Origin: Collinsella bouchesdurhonensis
GTDB lineage: Bacteria; Actinomycetota; Coriobacteriia; Coriobacteriales; Coriobacteriaceae
NCBI RefSeq assembly: GCF_900155365.1
Contig: NZ_LT699743.1
Coordinates: 312,219 to 376,218 of the forward strand
Direction: 5' to 3'
Length of the DNA: 64,000 bases
Shown here: piece after piece, positions 3,102 to 39,515 of the stretch
Layout: each line of letters opens with the position of its first letter
How positions within the stretch are numbered: the stretch's first letter is position 1
Program-made: the position numbers and the translations under genes
Notes under the pieces: generated by a model
What the model saw: the letters and a program-made list of their open reading frames with translations, nothing else
Databases searched by the model: none
Told to the model about the DNA's origin: nothing

Positions 3102-4064
3102 CTAGGCCGTGATGCGGGTGCCAGAAAGGCCGGCCATGGTCTCGGCGGCCTTGTCCAGGGCGCCGATGATGCAGGTGCGGCCCTTGCGGGAGCGGGCGAA
3201 CTTGATGGCCGCGCGGACCTTGGGCTCCATGGAGCCCTTGCCGAACTGGCCCTCGTCGGCCAGGCGCTCGGCCTCGTCGGCGGTGAGCTCCTCGAGCTCC
3301 TGCTGGTCGGGCTTGCCAAAGTTGATGGCCACGTGCTCGACGGCCGTGAGCAGGAACAGGACGTCGGCGGAGCAATCCTCGGCGAGCAGCTCTCCGCCCA
3401 GGTCCTTGTCGATGACGGCGGGCACGCCCTTGTAGCAGCCCTTGTTCTCGTAGTCGCGCACGACGGGGATTCCGCCGCCGCCGCAGGCGATGACGATAAA
3501 CTCGTTGTCGAGCAGGTTGAGGATGGAGTCGGCCTCGACGATCTTCTTGGGCTCGGGGGACGCCACGACGCGGCGCCATCCGCGGCCGGAGTCCTCGACG
3601 AAGATCATCTCGGGATCCTCGGCCATGATCTGCTTGGCCTGCTCCTCGGTGTAGAACGGGCCGATGGGCTTGGTGGGGTTCTTGAACGCGGGGTCGTCGG
3701 GGTCGCACTCGATCTGGGTAACGACGGTGGCGGCGTGCCAGCGCTTGTAGCGGCGGTGCATCTCGCGGCCGATGCCCTGCTGCAGATGGTAGCCGATGTA
3801 GCCCTGAGACATGGCGCCGCACTCGGGCAGGTCCATGGAGGGGGTGCCGATGGCGTCGTGGGCGGCGGCGAAGGCGTTCTGGATCATGCCGACCTGCGGG
3901 CCGTTGCCGTGGGTGATGATGATCTCGTTGCCCTGCTCGATGAGGCCGAGGAGCGCGTGGGCGGTGTTGTCCACGGCCTCGATCTGCTCGGCCGGGGTGT
4001 TGCCGAGGGCGTTGCCGCCGAGGGCGACGACGATGCGGTCGGGCTTGCCGAGAGGCTTAGACAT
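3102..4064 (-). CDS. arcC: Carbamate kinase
   Basis: 320 aa, the usual size. It transfers the phosphate of carbamoyl phosphate to ADP, giving ATP, CO2 and ammonia, the energy-yielding last step of agmatine (or arginine) fermentation in the cytoplasm. Visible family motifs include the N-terminal VVALGGNALG, THGNGPQVG, the CGGGGIPVV segment and the FGKGSMEPKV segment near the C-terminus. Start is ATG 4064 with GAAAGGA 8 nt upstream; a TTG 21 nt earlier is in frame but lies before the ribosome site. It follows agmatine deiminase after 133 bp containing a hairpin terminator, so its transcription may be partly uncoupled. No arginine deiminase or ornithine carbamoyltransferase is nearby, so the carbamoyl phosphate most likely comes from ptcA. 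Confidence 0.95.
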   Translation of the reverse strand: MSKPLGKPDRIVVALGGNALGNTPAEQIEAVDNTAHALLGLIEQGNEIIITHGNGPQVGMIQNAFAAAHDAIGTPSMDLPECGAMSQGYIGYHLQQGIGREMHRRYKRWHAATVVTQIECDPDDPAFKNPTKPIGPFYTEEQAKQIMAEDPEMIFVEDSGRGWRRVVASPEPKKIVEADSILNLLDNEFIVIACGGGGIPVVRDYENKGCYKGVPAVIDKDLGGELLAEDCSADVLFLLTAVEHVAINFGKPDQQELEELTADEAERLADEGQFGKGSMEPKVRAAIKFARSRKGRTCIIGALDKAAETMAGLSGTRITA

Positions 4065-4197: not shown

Positions 4198-5403
4198 TTA
4201 AGCGGAAGGCTCCTGCTGCGTGATGCAGTGGATGTTGCCGCCGCCGAAGACGACCTGCTCGGACTGGACGCCCACGCACTTGTAGACGCCCTCGCCCCAG
4301 ACCTCGTCATAGATCTTCTGGAGGGTATCGACGGCCAGCTGGTCGTTCTCGTCGCCATACTGCGGAACGATAACGCCGTGGTTGGTCACGAGGTAGTTCA
4401 TGTAGGAGGCGATCAGCGGCTCGTCGGGGACGCGGGGCTCAGCGTTCTCGTCGGCGTCGATGGTGTCGCAGGAAGCCTGGTCCATGAACAGCGGGTTCAC
4501 GGGCATGCAGAGCTTGTAGACCTTCATCTTGCGGCCCTTAGCGTCAACCGCGTTGGAGAGGGTCTCGTAAGCAGCGTGGCACTGATCATAGAACGGGTAC
4601 TCGGGATCGTCGGTCCAGATGCAGGCCATGACACCCGGGGCGATGAAGGTGGCGACGTCGTCGATGTGACCGTTGGTCTCCTCGGGATCGATGCCCTCCT
4701 TGACCCAGATGACCTTCTCGACACCGAGGTAATCCTTGAGGTGCTCGTTCATGTACTCGCGAAGCTCCTCGCTCCAGGGCTCGAACCTCTTCTTGAACTT
4801 GGGCCAGATGGACTCGGGATCCTCTTCCTCCTCGAGCACCGCGGAGCAGGTGCGGCCGGGGGACAGCAGGCACTGATCGGTGACGACGAGGGTGCCCTCG
4901 CCGTCGACGGTGATGGAGCCGCCCTCGAGGATCATGTCGTCGGGACGGTAGCGGCGGCAGCCGGAGAGCTCGGCCATCTTGAGGGCGATCTGCTCGTCCT
5001 TGTCCCACGGGAAGTACAGGCCGTCGACGAGGCCGCCGTAAGCGTTGAAGTGCCAGTGGTTGGCGCGCTTCTCGCCCTTTCCGTTGATGACGTAGGTGGC
5101 GCCGGTGTCGCGGAACCAGGCGTCGTCGGTGGTCATCTCGACGACGGTGACGTTCTCGTCGTTCTCGAAGACGGCCTTGCAGTTGGCGTAGTCGGCCTGG
5201 TTGGCGCACATATAGACCGGGGTGAACTCGGCGATGGCGCGGGCGATGGCGGCGTACTGCCTCTGGGCGGGCTTGGCGCCATGGGCCCAGGTGTCGGTGC
5301 GGTGGGGCCAGCCCATCCACACGCGATCCTGCGGAGCAAACTCCGCGGGCATGAAGAAGCCGTCGGCCTTGGGGGTGGATTCGGATTCAGTGATCGTACG
5401 CAT
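4198..5403 (-). CDS. aguA: Agmatine deiminase
   Basis: 401 aa. It hydrolyses agmatine to N-carbamoylputrescine and ammonia through a guanidine-modifying (pentein) fold. Family signatures are visible: WFRDTGATYV, LEGGSITVDGEGT, GHIDDVATF and the C-terminal GGGNIHCITQQEP, whose Cys (about residue 393) is the expected catalytic nucleophile. Start is ATG 5403 with GGAGG 8 nt upstream; the reading frame is open for 30 codons further but has no better site. It lies between the antiporter (297 bp upstream) and carbamate kinase. A partial copy (GTTAGTTT, 5508-5515) of the element found upstream of ptcA and the second antiporter lies about 108 bp before the start, so it may have its own regulated promoter. 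Confidence 0.96.
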   Translation of the reverse strand: MRTITESESTPKADGFFMPAEFAPQDRVWMGWPHRTDTWAHGAKPAQRQYAAIARAIAEFTPVYMCANQADYANCKAVFENDENVTVVEMTTDDAWFRDTGATYVINGKGEKRANHWHFNAYGGLVDGLYFPWDKDEQIALKMAELSGCRRYRPDDMILEGGSITVDGEGTLVVTDQCLLSPGRTCSAVLEEEEDPESIWPKFKKRFEPWSEELREYMNEHLKDYLGVEKVIWVKEGIDPEETNGHIDDVATFIAPGVMACIWTDDPEYPFYDQCHAAYETLSNAVDAKGRKMKVYKLCMPVNPLFMDQASCDTIDADENAEPRVPDEPLIASYMNYLVTNHGVIVPQYGDENDQLAVDTLQKIYDEVWGEGVYKCVGVQSEQVVFGGGNIHCITQQEPSA

Positions 5404-5700
5404 GTGATTTCCTCCAAACCGTAGCGATCGCACCGCAGGCGCGAGTGCCCGCGGCAAAACACCAAAGTGCGGCGGGTCTGTTTTCGGTCGCACCCGCCGG
5501 ACGACCGGTTAGTTTGAGGACCCGATGACGCCGAGAGAGGAGATGAGCACAGGGAGGGCCCAAGAGCAACGTCACTTGATTACCTCAGCGAGTCGATATC
5601 CGCACTCGCGGGCGGTGGGTCCGGGCTGCGCAAGGAGACAGGGGTGCGCGGCCCATCTCATCGAAAATAAGGCGGCAGGCACCGAGAAGGGGCAGATGCC

Positions 5701-7140
5701 TTACTCCTCGTCGCCAGCCTCGGCTTCCTCGGCCAGGCGCTGGGCTGCGAGCTCAGGGGTCAGGCCCTTGTACTCTTCCTTGCGGCCCTTAGCGGAGACG
5801 ACGCGGACGACCTCGCCGATGAGCACGAGCACGATGAAGATGACGATCATCGGGACCTTGTCGGCAATCTCGTCGGCAGAAAGCGGAACGATGGTCGCGA
5901 CGATGGCCAGGATGAGCTCGATGCAGGGGATGGCGAGCATGGCCTTCATCATCGCGCCCTTGAACGGGAACTTGAAGATGCGCTCGCGGTCGGGGTCGTT
6001 CTTGCGAAGGTTGAGGAACGCCGGGAACATCGGGATGTAGGTGAGCAGCAGGAAGACGACGGAGGTACCGAAGAGCATCCAGAAGACGCCGTTGGAAATG
6101 GCGTCGATGGGCACCAGCTGCAGGCAGAGGACCAGGGAGGCGACGACGGCGTTGACCAGGTTGGCGCCGTTGGGCATGTCGTCCTCGGAGATCATGGAAG
6201 CGAAGACCTTGGGCATGTTGCCGTGCTCAGCAGCATAGCGGGCGACGGAGTTGACGCCGAAGGACCAGGCGGCCATGTTGGCGAACAGGGTGATCAGGAA
6301 GGCGATGCAGATGACCTTGAAGAGCATGGAGTTGCCCACCATAGTCTGGACCGCGACGATCATGCCGTAGTCGGGGTCGATGGAATCGGCGGGCACAGCT
6401 GCGCCGATGCCAAAGCCGGCGAACAGGTAGATAACAGCGATGGACACGCCACCGACGATGATTGCCTTGGGGATGTCCTTGGAAGGATCGGCCATATCAT
6501 CGGTCATGGTGCAGATAACCTCAAAGCCCATGAAGTTGAAGATGATGATGGACAGGTAGCCCAAAGCGTTGGTGTTGGTGAGCTCGGGGAGGAAGGTGGC
6601 AGCGGACATATCGTTCGCGAAACCGTTCTCCATGGCGAACCAGATGCCCAGGGCGCCGACGATAACTGCCACGGCGACCTTGATCAGGGCGCCGCCGTTG
6701 AGGACCCACTCGGAGTCGGCGGCCTTGGAGCGGCCCATGAGGTAGACGATCCACACGAAGGCGAGCTCGATGCCCATCTTGGCGACGATGTTGAACTCGA
6801 CGCCGAAGACCATGCCCAGGATGTCGGGGAACATGGTCGCCAGGGAGGCGATCCACAGGGGGTAGTTGACCCAGTAGTAGTAGGAGATGCGGGCGCCCCA
6901 TTTGTCGCCCAGGCCATCGCGGACCCAGTCGTAGATGCCGCCGTCGCCGTCATAGGTGGTCCCCAGCTCGGCGACGACCATGCCGTAGGGGAGCAGGAAC
7001 GTGAGGATCAGGAAGATCCACCAGAAGAACTGCTGGTTGCCGATGGCGGCGGCGGGAGCGGCGGCCTCGCACACGAAGACGACGCAGATGATGGTCGAGA
7101 TGACCGTCAGGAAGGAAAGCTTTTTCTTTCCGTCACTCAT
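5701..7140 (-). CDS. aguD: APC-superfamily antiporter, probable agmatine/putrescine exchanger
   Basis: 479 aa with about 12 hydrophobic helices, the usual build of amino acid-polyamine-organocation antiporters. The N-terminal region has the conserved EAAAPAAAIG segment and a GGIYDWVRDGLGDKWGAR loop. The acidic tail (last ~25 residues) is cytosolic. Start is ATG 7140 with AAAGGA nearby. It sits between ptcA (116 bp upstream) and aguA. That order matches agmatine deiminase operons, in which this protein imports agmatine and exports putrescine without energy cost. It is a close paralogue of the protein at 9101-10486. Exchange specificity is inferred from context and family, not visible in the sequence. 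Confidence 0.88.
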   Translation of the reverse strand: MSDGKKKLSFLTVISTIICVVFVCEAAAPAAAIGNQQFFWWIFLILTFLLPYGMVVAELGTTYDGDGGIYDWVRDGLGDKWGARISYYYWVNYPLWIASLATMFPDILGMVFGVEFNIVAKMGIELAFVWIVYLMGRSKAADSEWVLNGGALIKVAVAVIVGALGIWFAMENGFANDMSAATFLPELTNTNALGYLSIIIFNFMGFEVICTMTDDMADPSKDIPKAIIVGGVSIAVIYLFAGFGIGAAVPADSIDPDYGMIVAVQTMVGNSMLFKVICIAFLITLFANMAAWSFGVNSVARYAAEHGNMPKVFASMISEDDMPNGANLVNAVVASLVLCLQLVPIDAISNGVFWMLFGTSVVFLLLTYIPMFPAFLNLRKNDPDRERIFKFPFKGAMMKAMLAIPCIELILAIVATIVPLSADEIADKVPMIVIFIVLVLIGEVVRVVSAKGRKEEYKGLTPELAAQRLAEEAEAGDEE

Positions 7141-7256: not shown

Positions 7257-8330
7257 TTAGAGCTGCTCGAGAGCGTCGAGAGCGGCATGGAGCTCGGCCT
7301 TGGCGGAGTACTCGACGTTCTCGTCGTTGAGCGGGGTGCGATTGCCGAGGGCAGCCAGGATGGCGCGGATGGAGTGCTTGCGGTTCTCGGCCTCGACCCA
7401 GCACAGGGAGCGCTCGGGATCGTCCATGACCTCGTCGACAACTTCCTCGTTGCGGGTAGCGGGCAGGCAGTGCATGAACTTGGAGTTCGGGCCGGCGAAG
7501 TTCATCATGTCCATGGTGACCTGATATTTGGGATAGAAGACGTCCATGTAGTTCTCGCCCTCGACCTCCTCGTCGTACAGGCCATACCACACGTCGGTGT
7601 AGACGAAGTCAGCACCCTTGATGCAGTCGATCTCGTCAGAGATGACGATGGAGCCGCCGGAGACCTTGCAGTTCTCCTCGCCGATAGCCATGAGCTTCTT
7701 GCCAAACTCAGCACGCTCCTCGGGGGTACCAACATGCAGGGCGCCGTCGCAGATCTGGTGACCCTTGGGGCCAAACTGCACGAAGTTCATGCCGATCTTG
7801 GAGCAGATGAACATGAGGGAGAGGCAAACCTGGGTAGCGTCGCCGATGAAGGCGAGGGTGCAGTCCTCGATCTTCTTGCCCTCGGGGAGGTTCTCAAGCA
7901 TGGTCATGAGGTCGCCCATCTCCTGAGTGGGGTGGTTGAACTCAGACATGCCGTTGATGACGGGCACAGCGGAGCCAGCGGCGAGGCCGACGACGTCCTT
8001 GTGACGGTCAACGCGAGCCATCATGATGTCGAGGAGGTCGCCCATGACGCGAGCAGTATCGCCCAGGGACTCGTGGCCACCGAGCTGGATGGTGCCAGGA
8101 CCATAGAACTGAGCGTGGCCACCGAGGTCGCACATGGCGGTCTCGAAGGAAAGACGGGTACGAGTGGAGACCTGCTGGAAGATCATGCCAAGGCTCTTGT
8201 TACGGAGCAGGTGAGGATAGAAACCGTCAACCTTGATGGCCTTCTTCATTGCCAGGCCAAGATCCTCGATAGCGAGAATCTGCTCTTTGGTGAAGTCATT
8301 AGTGTCGAGAAAATCCTTGGGCAGCGCCAT
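7257..8330 (-). CDS. ptcA: Putrescine carbamoyltransferase
   Basis: 357 aa. It phosphorolyses N-carbamoylputrescine to putrescine and carbamoyl phosphate. Carbamoyltransferase motifs are intact: STRTR (residues 55-59, carbamoyl phosphate), HPTQE and HCLPATR. Several segments fit the putrescine-specific enzyme rather than ornithine transcarbamylase: SLGMIFQQ before STRTR, PVINGMS before [17 protein letters not shown], and the extra C-terminal helix region. Start is ATG 8330 with GAAAGGA 6-7 nt upstream. It is the first gene of the minus-strand agmatine group. The 770 bp upstream carries the regulatory element at 8431-8485. Confidence 0.95.
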
Positions 8331-8430
8331 TGCGATTCCTTTCCGTCGGCAGCACCGACTTTCCTTGTGGACACGATCTATTTCGCATCCGCTTTGTCAC
8401 TAATTCCATGATTCCCACATTGGCGGAAAA

Positions 8431-8485
8431 GCGTTAGTTTATTCGAGATTAAAGGCCGCCTAAAGAAATAGACCTTCCCTAAACC
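8431..8485 (-). promoter_or_regulatory. Putative agmatine-regulon operator upstream of ptcA
   Basis: GCGTTAGTTTATTC is identical over 14 bp to a site upstream of the second antiporter. Both copies are followed by GATTAAAG and CCG at the same spacing. At the same 41-bp offset where the other copy has GAATAAACT, this one keeps a decayed half-site (CCCTAAACC, 8477-8485). The AGTTTATTC half-site lies 106 bp before the ptcA start. A bound LuxR-type regulator is an inference. Confidence 0.6.
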
Positions 8486-8815
8486 CGCACAAACCCGCAG
8501 GTAGATGCAGTATACCTATTTTTCATTACATCTTGAACGACCGTTCACCGTCCGCAGGCGTTTTATCTCAAATTCGCTTACTTTACCCGGTTAAAGCATT
8601 TTTTCAAACCCCTTTTTCTGTCTCCAGGCCGTCTGCTTCCGGACTAAACCTTTCTCATCCCTGCCGTTCAAATTGTTTAAATTTTGTGTTCTCGAGTTGC
8701 ATTTATTGTGCGCATCGCGACTCTCCTTTAACGGGAACAAGCGCCCCCGGTACACTCCTGTTTGGTAGATTTGACAACATGCCCAGGTACATGGGCTATA
8801 GACGAATGACTTGGA

Positions 8816-8965
8816 GTGGCAGTGGCAGCGATCAGTTCCTTTGTTCTTGCGATTCAGACCTATTTTGCGGATCTTTGCTCCGCATGCGCTTTTGATAGCA
8901 CGGCTCCTCGCAGGCATCTGGCAGATCGTACCTACCTTGGTCACATCGCCTCTGCATCGCTGTAA
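8816..8965 (+). CDS. Possible small protein in the ptcA upstream region (49 aa)
   Basis: A GTG-initiated frame encodes a 49-aa peptide starting with a hydrophobic stretch (VAVAAISSFVLAIQ) and ending at TAA 8963-8965. A TTGACA hexamer lies at 8771-8776 and a good terminator at 9008-9042 on the same strand, so something is probably transcribed here. There is no convincing ribosome binding site. The transcript could equally be a small RNA. The rest of 8331-9100 shows only the regulatory element near ptcA and no other gene. Confidence 0.25.
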   Translation: MAVAAISSFVLAIQTYFADLCSACAFDSTAPRRHLADRTYLGHIASASL

Positions 8966-9007
8966 TTATCTTCTGATACGTCGAGATACACCCTTGTAGA
9001 CAAACGC

Positions 9008-9042
9008 AAGCGCGACCCGAAAGCCTTCGGACCGCGCTTTTT
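9008..9042 (+). terminator. Orphan plus-strand terminator
   Basis: AAGCGCG (9008-9014) pairs with CGCGCTT (9033-9039) and CCGAA with TTCGG inside, followed by TTTTT. No annotated plus-strand gene precedes it, which suggests a short or non-coding transcript from the 8.8-9.0 kb region. Confidence 0.75.
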
Positions 9043-9100
9043 GCGCTCTATTTCATTGTTTTTAGCAAGAGTTGGGCCGAGCACGCAGGCCGCAAACACG

Positions 9101-10486
9101 TTAGCGCTTTGCCACACCGGGAAAATCGCTCATACGGCCCCGTTTCGAGTAAATACGGACGCCCTCCCCCACCGCTGCGAGAACGATGACGCTCAAAAGC
9201 ATGGGAAGCTTCGCAAGCTCTTCTGCGCCCATGCCCAAAGGCACAATGGTGGCCACAATAGCAAGCACGAGCTCAATCACCGGCAAAATCAGCGCCACAG
9301 ACAGCACCTTACCCTCAAACGGAGCGCGAAAAACGCGCTTGGTCTTGCTGTCGTATGTACGCAGGCACCAAAAAGCAGGAAACATCGGAATATAGCTCAA
9401 GAGCAAAAACACGACATTGGTGGAAAACAAGACCCAAAACACGTCGGAATCCTCACCTAAAAACACTTGAAGAAGCAATACGCCACTCGCGATAACGCCA
9501 TTCATGATGGCAGCACCATTTGGCATACCCGTACGCTTCGAGCAAAGTGAGAAGATCTTAGGCATATTGCCGTGTCCTGCGGCATAGCATGCCACCTGGT
9601 TTACGCCAAACGACCAGCAGGTCATATTTGCAAACAGCGTCACCATAAAGGCAATTCCAACCGCGGTGGTTAGAGGATGCGCCGTTCCCAGCATAGCCGC
9701 CACGGCATCCACTATCCCTGAGTCAAGCGAGAGCTTCTCGGTGGGCACCGCAGCGCCGATACCAATGCCGCACAGTATATAAATAGCAGCGATGGCTACC
9801 CCGCCCACGATAATGGCACGAGGAATGTCGTGCGAGGGGTCCTTCATGGCACCGGCAAAGGTTGCCACGACCTCGAATCCCATAAAGTTGAAGAGGATGA
9901 TCGAGAGGTACGTCAACGATTTTGTATCCGAAAAATCGGGAATGAAGGTCTGGGGGCTCATATCGTTGGCAAAGCCCTGCGTACAAGCAAACCAGACGCC
10001 GCAGGCACCCACCACCAGCACGACAAAGACTTTAATAATTGCCCCGCCGTTCATGATCCATTCAGAATCGGAAACGGGCGAGAAAGCCAGCAGCGTTACG
10101 CCCCAAACAAAGATAAGCTCGAGTGCAATCTTGACCCCCAGCGCCAGCTCGATGCCCCACAGAGAATGAATGATGCTCGGCGCCATACAGGCAAGACTTG
10201 CGATCCACAAGGGGAAATTAACCCAATAGCACCAGGAGCAGCGAGCACCCCATTTGTCGCCCAAACCTTCGCGGACCCAATCGTACAGGCCGCCGCATGA
10301 GTCATACGCGGTGCCCAATTCTGCCACCACTAAGCCATAAGGCAGCAGGAACGTAATGATCAAAAACCCCCACCAGAAGAACTGGACGTTACCCATGGCG
10401 GAAGCAGGAGCTGCGGCCTCGATGGTAAATACCACGCAGATAACGGACAGCACCACGTCTATAAGAGAAAACTTCTTTCCAAGCAT
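9101..10486 (-). CDS. Second APC-superfamily antiporter, paralogue of AguD
   Basis: 461 aa, ~12 hydrophobic helices. It aligns along its length with the antiporter at 5701-7140: shared EAAAPASAMG, VAELGTAYDSCGGLYDW and DKWGAR segments. Start is ATG 10486 with GAAGGGA about 9 nt upstream; a longer in-frame start at 10564 lacks a site and would run towards the operator. It is transcribed away from the LuxR gene at 10784 with the dyad element centred between them. A polyamine or amino-acid exchange role is likely. It may serve a different substrate (for example arginine or another diamine) or different conditions from the first copy; the sequence does not decide this. Confidence 0.85.
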   Translation of the reverse strand: MLGKKFSLIDVVLSVICVVFTIEAAAPASAMGNVQFFWWGFLIITFLLPYGLVVAELGTAYDSCGGLYDWVREGLGDKWGARCSWCYWVNFPLWIASLACMAPSIIHSLWGIELALGVKIALELIFVWGVTLLAFSPVSDSEWIMNGGAIIKVFVVLVVGACGVWFACTQGFANDMSPQTFIPDFSDTKSLTYLSIILFNFMGFEVVATFAGAMKDPSHDIPRAIIVGGVAIAAIYILCGIGIGAAVPTEKLSLDSGIVDAVAAMLGTAHPLTTAVGIAFMVTLFANMTCWSFGVNQVACYAAGHGNMPKIFSLCSKRTGMPNGAAIMNGVIASGVLLLQVFLGEDSDVFWVLFSTNVVFLLLSYIPMFPAFWCLRTYDSKTKRVFRAPFEGKVLSVALILPVIELVLAIVATIVPLGMGAEELAKLPMLLSVIVLAAVGEGVRIYSKRGRMSDFPGVAKR

Positions 10487-10602
10487 ACGCCTGGTCCCTT
10501 CATGAGGAGAGCGGGACCGCTTGCCGACGGGCAGGCAGCGGCCGCGAGGCTCAAGACCAAGCAAAGTCCTCGCGCTTATATCATCGTCCCAAAAGCCGCG
10601 AG

Positions 10603-10660
10603 GCGTTAGTTTATTCCGGATTAAAGTCCGTTTGAAGAGTTATAACCTGAATAAACTGGT
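10603..10660. promoter_or_regulatory. Dyad operator between the second antiporter and its LuxR gene
   Basis: AGTTTATTC (10608-10616) and GAATAAACT (10649-10657) form a perfect 9-bp inverted repeat with a 32-bp spacer. It sits at the middle of the 297-bp divergent intergenic region (122 bp to the antiporter ATG, 127 bp to the LuxR ATG). The left half and following bases match the element upstream of ptcA. The symmetry suggests shared control of both genes, perhaps by the adjacent LuxR protein. Confidence 0.65.

Positions 10661-39442: not shown

Positions 39443-39515
<73 letters not shown>

Follow-up and report, generated by a model that had tools for sequence, protein, structure and literature searches.

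A conserved GTTTA half-site array as the putative operator of an AguR-like membrane LuxR regulator in Collinsella bouchesdurhonensis

A putative operator of agmatine catabolism in Collinsella bouchesdurhonensis

An element that recurs upstream of ptcA and in the divergent gap between apc2 and luxR2 is very probably the operator of LuxR2, the adjacent AguR-like membrane LuxR protein and putative activator. Judging from the repeated words and from related genomes, the predicted operator comprises about four half-sites arrayed as two facing pairs and is not one oddly gapped dyad. The regulator is of a known kind and the predicted operator newly recognized, concrete, and testable, with a link to how Collinsella metabolizes agmatine and putrescine. 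Gut Coriobacteriia have many membrane LuxR activators, yet no operator for such a protein is defined in PMC3796520, PMC4696319, or the main text of PMC9734109. Coordinates (Table 1) refer to the window, the whole 64,000-nucleotide stretch of DNA that we analyzed.

TABLE 1 Genes, putative operator arrays, and candidate promoter elements in the window
Feature	Position	Strand	Basis or remark
arcC, carbamate kinase	3102..4064	-	AA_kinase
aguA, agmatine deiminase	4198..5403	-	PAD_porph
apc1, amino acid permease family transporter	5701..7140	-	AA_permease_2; same gene order in enterococcal agu clusters
ptcA, putrescine carbamoyltransferase	7257..8330	-	OTCace domains; 55-60% identical to annotated enterococcal ptcA
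Candidate -10 AATCAT, ptcA promoter (weak)	8408..8413	-	20 bp beyond operator
Putative operator array, ptcA upstream	8436..8497	.	Matrix scores 23.2 and 18.7; exact words; aligns with ptcA leaders of other Collinsella
Half-sites, ptcA array	GTTTA 8437-8441, GATTA 8447-8451 (+); GTTTA 8480-8484, GTTTG 8490-8494 (-)		
apc2, amino acid permease family transporter, probable target	9101..10486	-	AA_permease_2; operator upstream
Candidate -10 GATGAT, apc2 promoter (weak)	10580..10585	-	20 bp beyond operator
Putative operator array, apc2/luxR2 gap	10608..10657	.	Matrix scores 23.9 and 22.2; exact words; unit and 32-bp offset conserved in other Coriobacteriia
Half-sites, apc2/luxR2 array	GTTTA 10609-10613, GATTA 10619-10623 (+); GTTAT 10642-10646, GTTTA 10652-10656 (-)		
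luxR2, AguR-like membrane LuxR protein, 322 aa	10784..11752	+	GerE; 7 helices (model); groups with ptcA-divergent Collinsella LuxRs

Two copies of the element in the window

The words GCGTTAGTTTATTC and GATTAAAG occur exactly at 8431-8444 and 8447-8454 upstream of ptcA and again at 10603-10616 and 10619-10626 in the apc2/luxR2 gap, with CCG equally distant in both copies, as a sequence-only reading of this DNA had claimed. The 24-mer GCGTTAGTTTATTC-NN-GATTAAAG (two free bases), which covers the common core (8431-8454 and 10603-10626), matched both copies with 0 mismatches; a third match at ≤3 mismatches was absent from the window, and 100 shuffles gave 0. Pattern searches of the whole 1.88-Mb genome found no third match to a 22-mer core at ≤3 mismatches, and the looser, degenerate RGTTTANNNNRGWTTA matched these two copies only.

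Between the divergent genes, the outer 9-mers AGTTTATTC (10608-10616) and GAATAAACT (10649-10657) form the perfect dyad first noticed there, with a 32-bp gap and a center (10632.5) approximately midway between the start codons of apc2 (10486) and luxR2 (10784). Dyad symmetry by itself is not rare (16/25 pairs match across 50 bp, and the window has 15 such 50-mers), so the weight of the 10608-10657 dyad derives from its conservation.

The second half-site of the ptcA copy had been described as decayed. Its TAAAC core is intact at 8480-8484, and the distance from GTTTA (8437) to TAAAC (8480) is 43 bp, identical to that in the luxR2 copy (10609 to 10652). Alignment with other Collinsella leaders showed that this GTTTA word is kept in 8/8 sequences, and an additional repeat lies farther outward at 8490-8494, the pair scoring 18.7 in the matrix. 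Two further resemblances that had been pointed out were attributable to chance: GTTAGTTT at 5508-5515 upstream of aguA, in a stretch with no matrix score above -10, and GTATAAACT at 1929-1937 before an exported amidohydrolase gene, where the best score was -0.4 compared with 18 to 24 for the real sites of the window.

Recognition unit and array across Coriobacteriia

We collected loci with ptcA relatives, mapped their genes, and searched 25 luxR/ptcA-type intergenic regions of Coriobacteriia de novo. In most of the collected loci, a luxR2 homologue diverges from either ptcA or an APC transporter gene. With no motif supplied, GTTT-N6-GTTT and its register shifts constituted the top dyad, present in 16/25 gaps; no dyad reached more than 7 in 20 shuffles. 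The recovered unit, RGTTTA-N4-RGWTTA (refined consensus, RGTTTAtnnnRGWTTAa), is a direct repeat of GTTTA half-sites spaced by one helical turn, and a second copy of the unit usually faces the first. A model-free count placed GTTTA-N5-GTTTA in 14/25 gaps against a shuffle mean of 0.02, and the sole other spacing found more than twice was N6 (4 gaps). We also considered a compact 16-bp palindrome, TTTAWTC-NN-GAWTAAA, which is perfect in close Collinsella and fails in L043, L055, L068, and L083. These four loci keep little beyond TTTA and TAAA, and the direct repeat covers all, so the palindrome was dropped.

The matrix was trained with up to two sites per gap and with offset information excluded. 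The opposite-strand partner of the best site in each gap lay most strongly at an offset of 32 bp, followed by 42, 31, and 21 bp (non-overlapping), which is expected if helix phase matters. Counted without the matrix, GTTTA-N38-TAAAC is present in 9/25 gaps, and some Eggerthellaceae and Atopobiaceae gaps have a single pair or a weak second pair. On this pattern, the 32-bp spacing of the predicted operator separates the outer half-sites of two direct repeats that face each other, an arrangement that two dimers would fit without any need for looping. The spacing, previously called unusual and suggestive of either looping or two dimers, is real and conserved. Half-sites and spacing are conserved in related upstream regions, the very comparison that had been singled out as able to overturn the proposal.

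The adjacent regulator

LuxR2 carries a GerE domain (PF00196) at residues 265 to 316 (58.4 bits; cutoff, 23.5), and its predicted structure (mean pLDDT, 86) has seven membrane-length helices N-terminal to that domain. No PDB match at an E value of <0.001 was obtained for the whole model. The DNA-binding domain superposes on LiaR domains (PDB 4wul, 4wu4, and 4wsz) at 0.6 to 0.7 Å over ∼54 residues with ∼50% identity, although LiaR is a soluble response regulator and its sensor part is unrelated to LuxR2.

In the tree, LuxR2 clusters with ptcA-facing Collinsella LuxRs (99/94), apart from luxR1 of the window. The same 14 of 45 congeneric genomes encode ptcA orthologs (identity, ≥89%) and intact LuxR2 orthologs (≥43%), and luxR2 is the divergent neighbor of the agmatine deiminase operon in most loci. 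One genome beyond the 14, G027, has a truncated LuxR2 and lacks ptcA. Its luxR2 (L152, G027:C43:20406-21185) contains an internal TAG and adjoins an apc1-like gene, as if the cluster were decaying.

The second membrane LuxR gene of the window, luxR1 (1998-2960), encodes a protein 29% identical to LuxR2 and is followed by the exported amidohydrolase gene (56-1867). These two genes stay together in related genomes (L153, 92 to 95% identical). At 1973 there is a weak resemblance to the motif (score, 11.3).

Similar sites beside other genes

For an independent test, we built a matrix from 14 Collinsella sites, with the window excluded, and scanned the 300 bp upstream of ptcA in loci that did not belong to the Collinsella set. 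A site reached by ≤2/200 shuffles was present at 10/13 loci with a divergent LuxR and at 3/19 without a detected LuxR. Some metagenome bins are coarsely labeled, so the division by family is approximate. One of the three is L082, where a divergent truncated reading frame at the contig edge is probably aguR.

These counts bear on an alternative in which the site belongs to another regulator, common to agmatine and arginine catabolism (for example, of arginine deiminase genes), and LuxR2 is a mere neighbor. Such a regulator could account for the presence of AGTTTATTAAGGTTTA upstream of arcC and of GGTTTAACAAAGTTTA upstream of arcA in genomes without LuxR2. We consider it unlikely, however, as the owner of the sites studied here, given that the ptcA motif tracks LuxR and precedes whichever gene faces LuxR, whether ptcA or the APC gene, and that no site of the arcA/arcC type occurs elsewhere in the C. 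bouchesdurhonensis genome.

Each of 23 Collinsella genomes has a single AGTTTATTAAGGTTTA, which lies directly ahead of arcC in 12/12 loci examined (e.g., L111, L113, and L121; G003:C10:29956-29971). The arcC gene that it precedes is unlinked, and some of these genomes lack both ptcA and LuxR2. Five AGTTTATTAAGGTTTA genomes that were checked (G001, G005, G006, G009, and G025) encode no LuxR2-like protein, only proteins that share the DNA-binding domain. GGTTTAACAAAGTTTA is located ∼240 bp ahead of the arginine deiminase gene arcA in a genome that lacks LuxR2 (L109:1501-1516; G001:C1:223341-223356), with no LuxR gene within 1.5 kb of the site in L109. Since similar sites precede arcC and arcA where LuxR2 is missing, the half-site is not exclusive to LuxR2, and in these genomes the sites must be read by some other regulator.

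Assignment of the two arrays in the window to LuxR2 upholds the core of the sequence-only reading, which had proposed the operator of a membrane LuxR. Motif conservation in Coriobacteriia, the co-occurrence of LuxR and ptcA, and the enterococcal half-site (see below) all favor it; the sites before aguA and the amidohydrolase gene are not included.

TAAAC-N5-TTAAMC is found in the gap after LuxR paralogs that are ∼30% identical to LuxR2 (L155, L157, L160, L162, L163, and L164). The motif is next to amidohydrolase genes in L155 and L162 to L164; the gene after these paralogs is mostly an amidohydrolase gene, and L162 has an apparent transporter gene. Based on sequence, these occurrences hint at a family-wide half-site. 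We therefore raise, tentatively and as somewhat doubtful, the possibility that a whole family of Coriobacteriia membrane LuxRs, including the amidohydrolase-linked paralogs and the arcA/arcC regulator, shares as its recognition unit the GTTTA-type half-site in 10-bp direct repeat. If this were true, sequence could suffice to assign regulons to many orphan membrane LuxRs.

Comparison with known regulators

The AguR proteins of Enterococcus faecalis (PMC3796520) and Lactococcus lactis (PMC4696319) are LuxR-type activators, and in enterococci aguR is divergent from ptcA-antiporter-aguA-arcC. AguR of L. lactis is described as a transmembrane one-component agmatine sensor (PMC4696319). In E. faecalis, AguR is an agmatine-dependent activator of the agmatine deiminase operon (∼800-fold with agmatine), aguR is autoinduced (∼7-fold), and the operon start site has been mapped (PMC3796520). 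No AguR operator is described in PMC3796520 or PMC4696319; Linares 2015 and Liu 2009 may propose one. LuxR2 is homologous to E. raffinosus AguR over nearly its full length (27%; E value, 8e-33), but enterococcal AguR proteins are 26 to 34% identical to LuxR2 and form a separate clade in a tree without an outgroup.

As in Coriobacteriia, GTTTA-N5-GTTTA is present in the aguR/ptcA gap of 5/5 Bacillota loci (4 Enterococcus and 1 Carnobacterium; shuffle mean, 0.01), which, because the enterococci are related, represent two or three independent observations and not five. The Coriobacteriia matrix barely beats shuffles in the Bacillota gaps, and it is the exact repeat count that carries the link. 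Although the repeat is conserved in Enterococcus, the facing-pair layout at 32 bp is not and is a Coriobacteriia feature. In Loigolactobacillus (L106), a transposase lies where aguR would be, and there is no site.

We located the published promoter boxes and a G 33 nt ahead of the start codon in an E. faecalis locus, where TAAAC words are centered at -140, -130, -94, and -31. The published mutation of the E. faecalis cre site at -55, which lowered the agmatine response >30-fold, shows the importance of sequence beyond the -35 box but touched no TAAAC word. The annotated aguR start at one E. faecalis locus (L105:1757-2602, NZ_CP143580.1) looks too far downstream, and the open frame extends upstream with sequence like other AguR N termini. 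The Lactobacillaceae “AguR” of PMC3616900 was set aside as an RpiR-type protein, a different regulator of the same name.

DadR, HcdR, and CadR of Eggerthella lenta (PMC9734109) are likewise membrane-embedded LuxR activators of Coriobacteriia that adjoin the genes they control, and one E. lenta strain has 83 transmembrane LuxR-type regulators (PMC9734109). DadR levels go up with inducer (PMC9734109), and the main text of that paper describes no operator for DadR, HcdR, or CadR. Regulators of this type have 10 to 12 transmembrane helices, whereas LuxR2 has seven predicted helices in 322 aa.

Promoters and proposed mechanism

Across the 25 gaps, -10-like hexamers cluster 20 to 26 bp outside the operator, a distance that puts the outer half-site next to the -35 region. 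The candidate boxes are weak, and a sigma-70 consensus scan gave no more matches than did shuffles. A position beside the -35 region is usual for an activator that touches RNA polymerase.

We propose that agmatine would be sensed by the seven-helix membrane domain, by analogy with the signal in E. faecalis and L. lactis. Two LuxR dimers may then occupy the array, with 10-bp half-site pairs facing each other so that the four words fall on one DNA face. Bound LuxR2 would recruit RNA polymerase to ptcA-apc1-aguA-arcC, in which ptcA is the probable first gene of the target operon and apc1 the probable agmatine/putrescine antiporter, and also to apc2. The symmetrical array would also allow LuxR2 to act on its own gene. 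The model also singles out the bases expected to matter in the agmatine-inducible expression systems that use enterococcal or lactococcal AguR.

The conserved words could instead be core promoter, with TAAACT in both directions serving as the -10 element and the dyad representing back-to-back sigma-70 promoters. TAAACT does agree with TATAAT at 4/6 bases and is divergent, but a general promoter would exceed two matches per genome, a 10-bp direct repeat is no promoter feature, and the -10-like hexamers sit further out. In addition, the mapped -10 of E. faecalis is TAAAGT, with a TAAAC word at -31 instead. We regard this alternative as very improbable.

Locus history

In C. bouchesdurhonensis, ptcA and luxR2 have apc2 between them; most other Collinsella carry an apc2 relative after aguA. 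Both operators look like copies of one ancestral luxR-ptcA divergent promoter, and the genome seems to have two because apc2 came between ptcA and luxR2. That apparent insertion, together with bases beyond the motif that the copies have in common (GCG ahead of it), would also be expected if the similarity reflected a recent duplication of promoter DNA that is not functional in both copies. This is scarcely credible as a full explanation, as it is contradicted by cross-family conservation: the same words are found upstream of ptcA or its neighbor in other genera and families, where the flanks are unrelated. The second copy may well have originated by duplication, which leaves that conservation unaccounted for.

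In the stretch from the ptcA operator to the end of apc2, a short GTG frame (about 8820-8966) precedes a strong hairpin containing T-runs (9008-9039). Rfam had no match for this 8820-9039 interval, which may correspond to a small transcript or leader, and only one, a tRNA (39443-39515), in the entire window.
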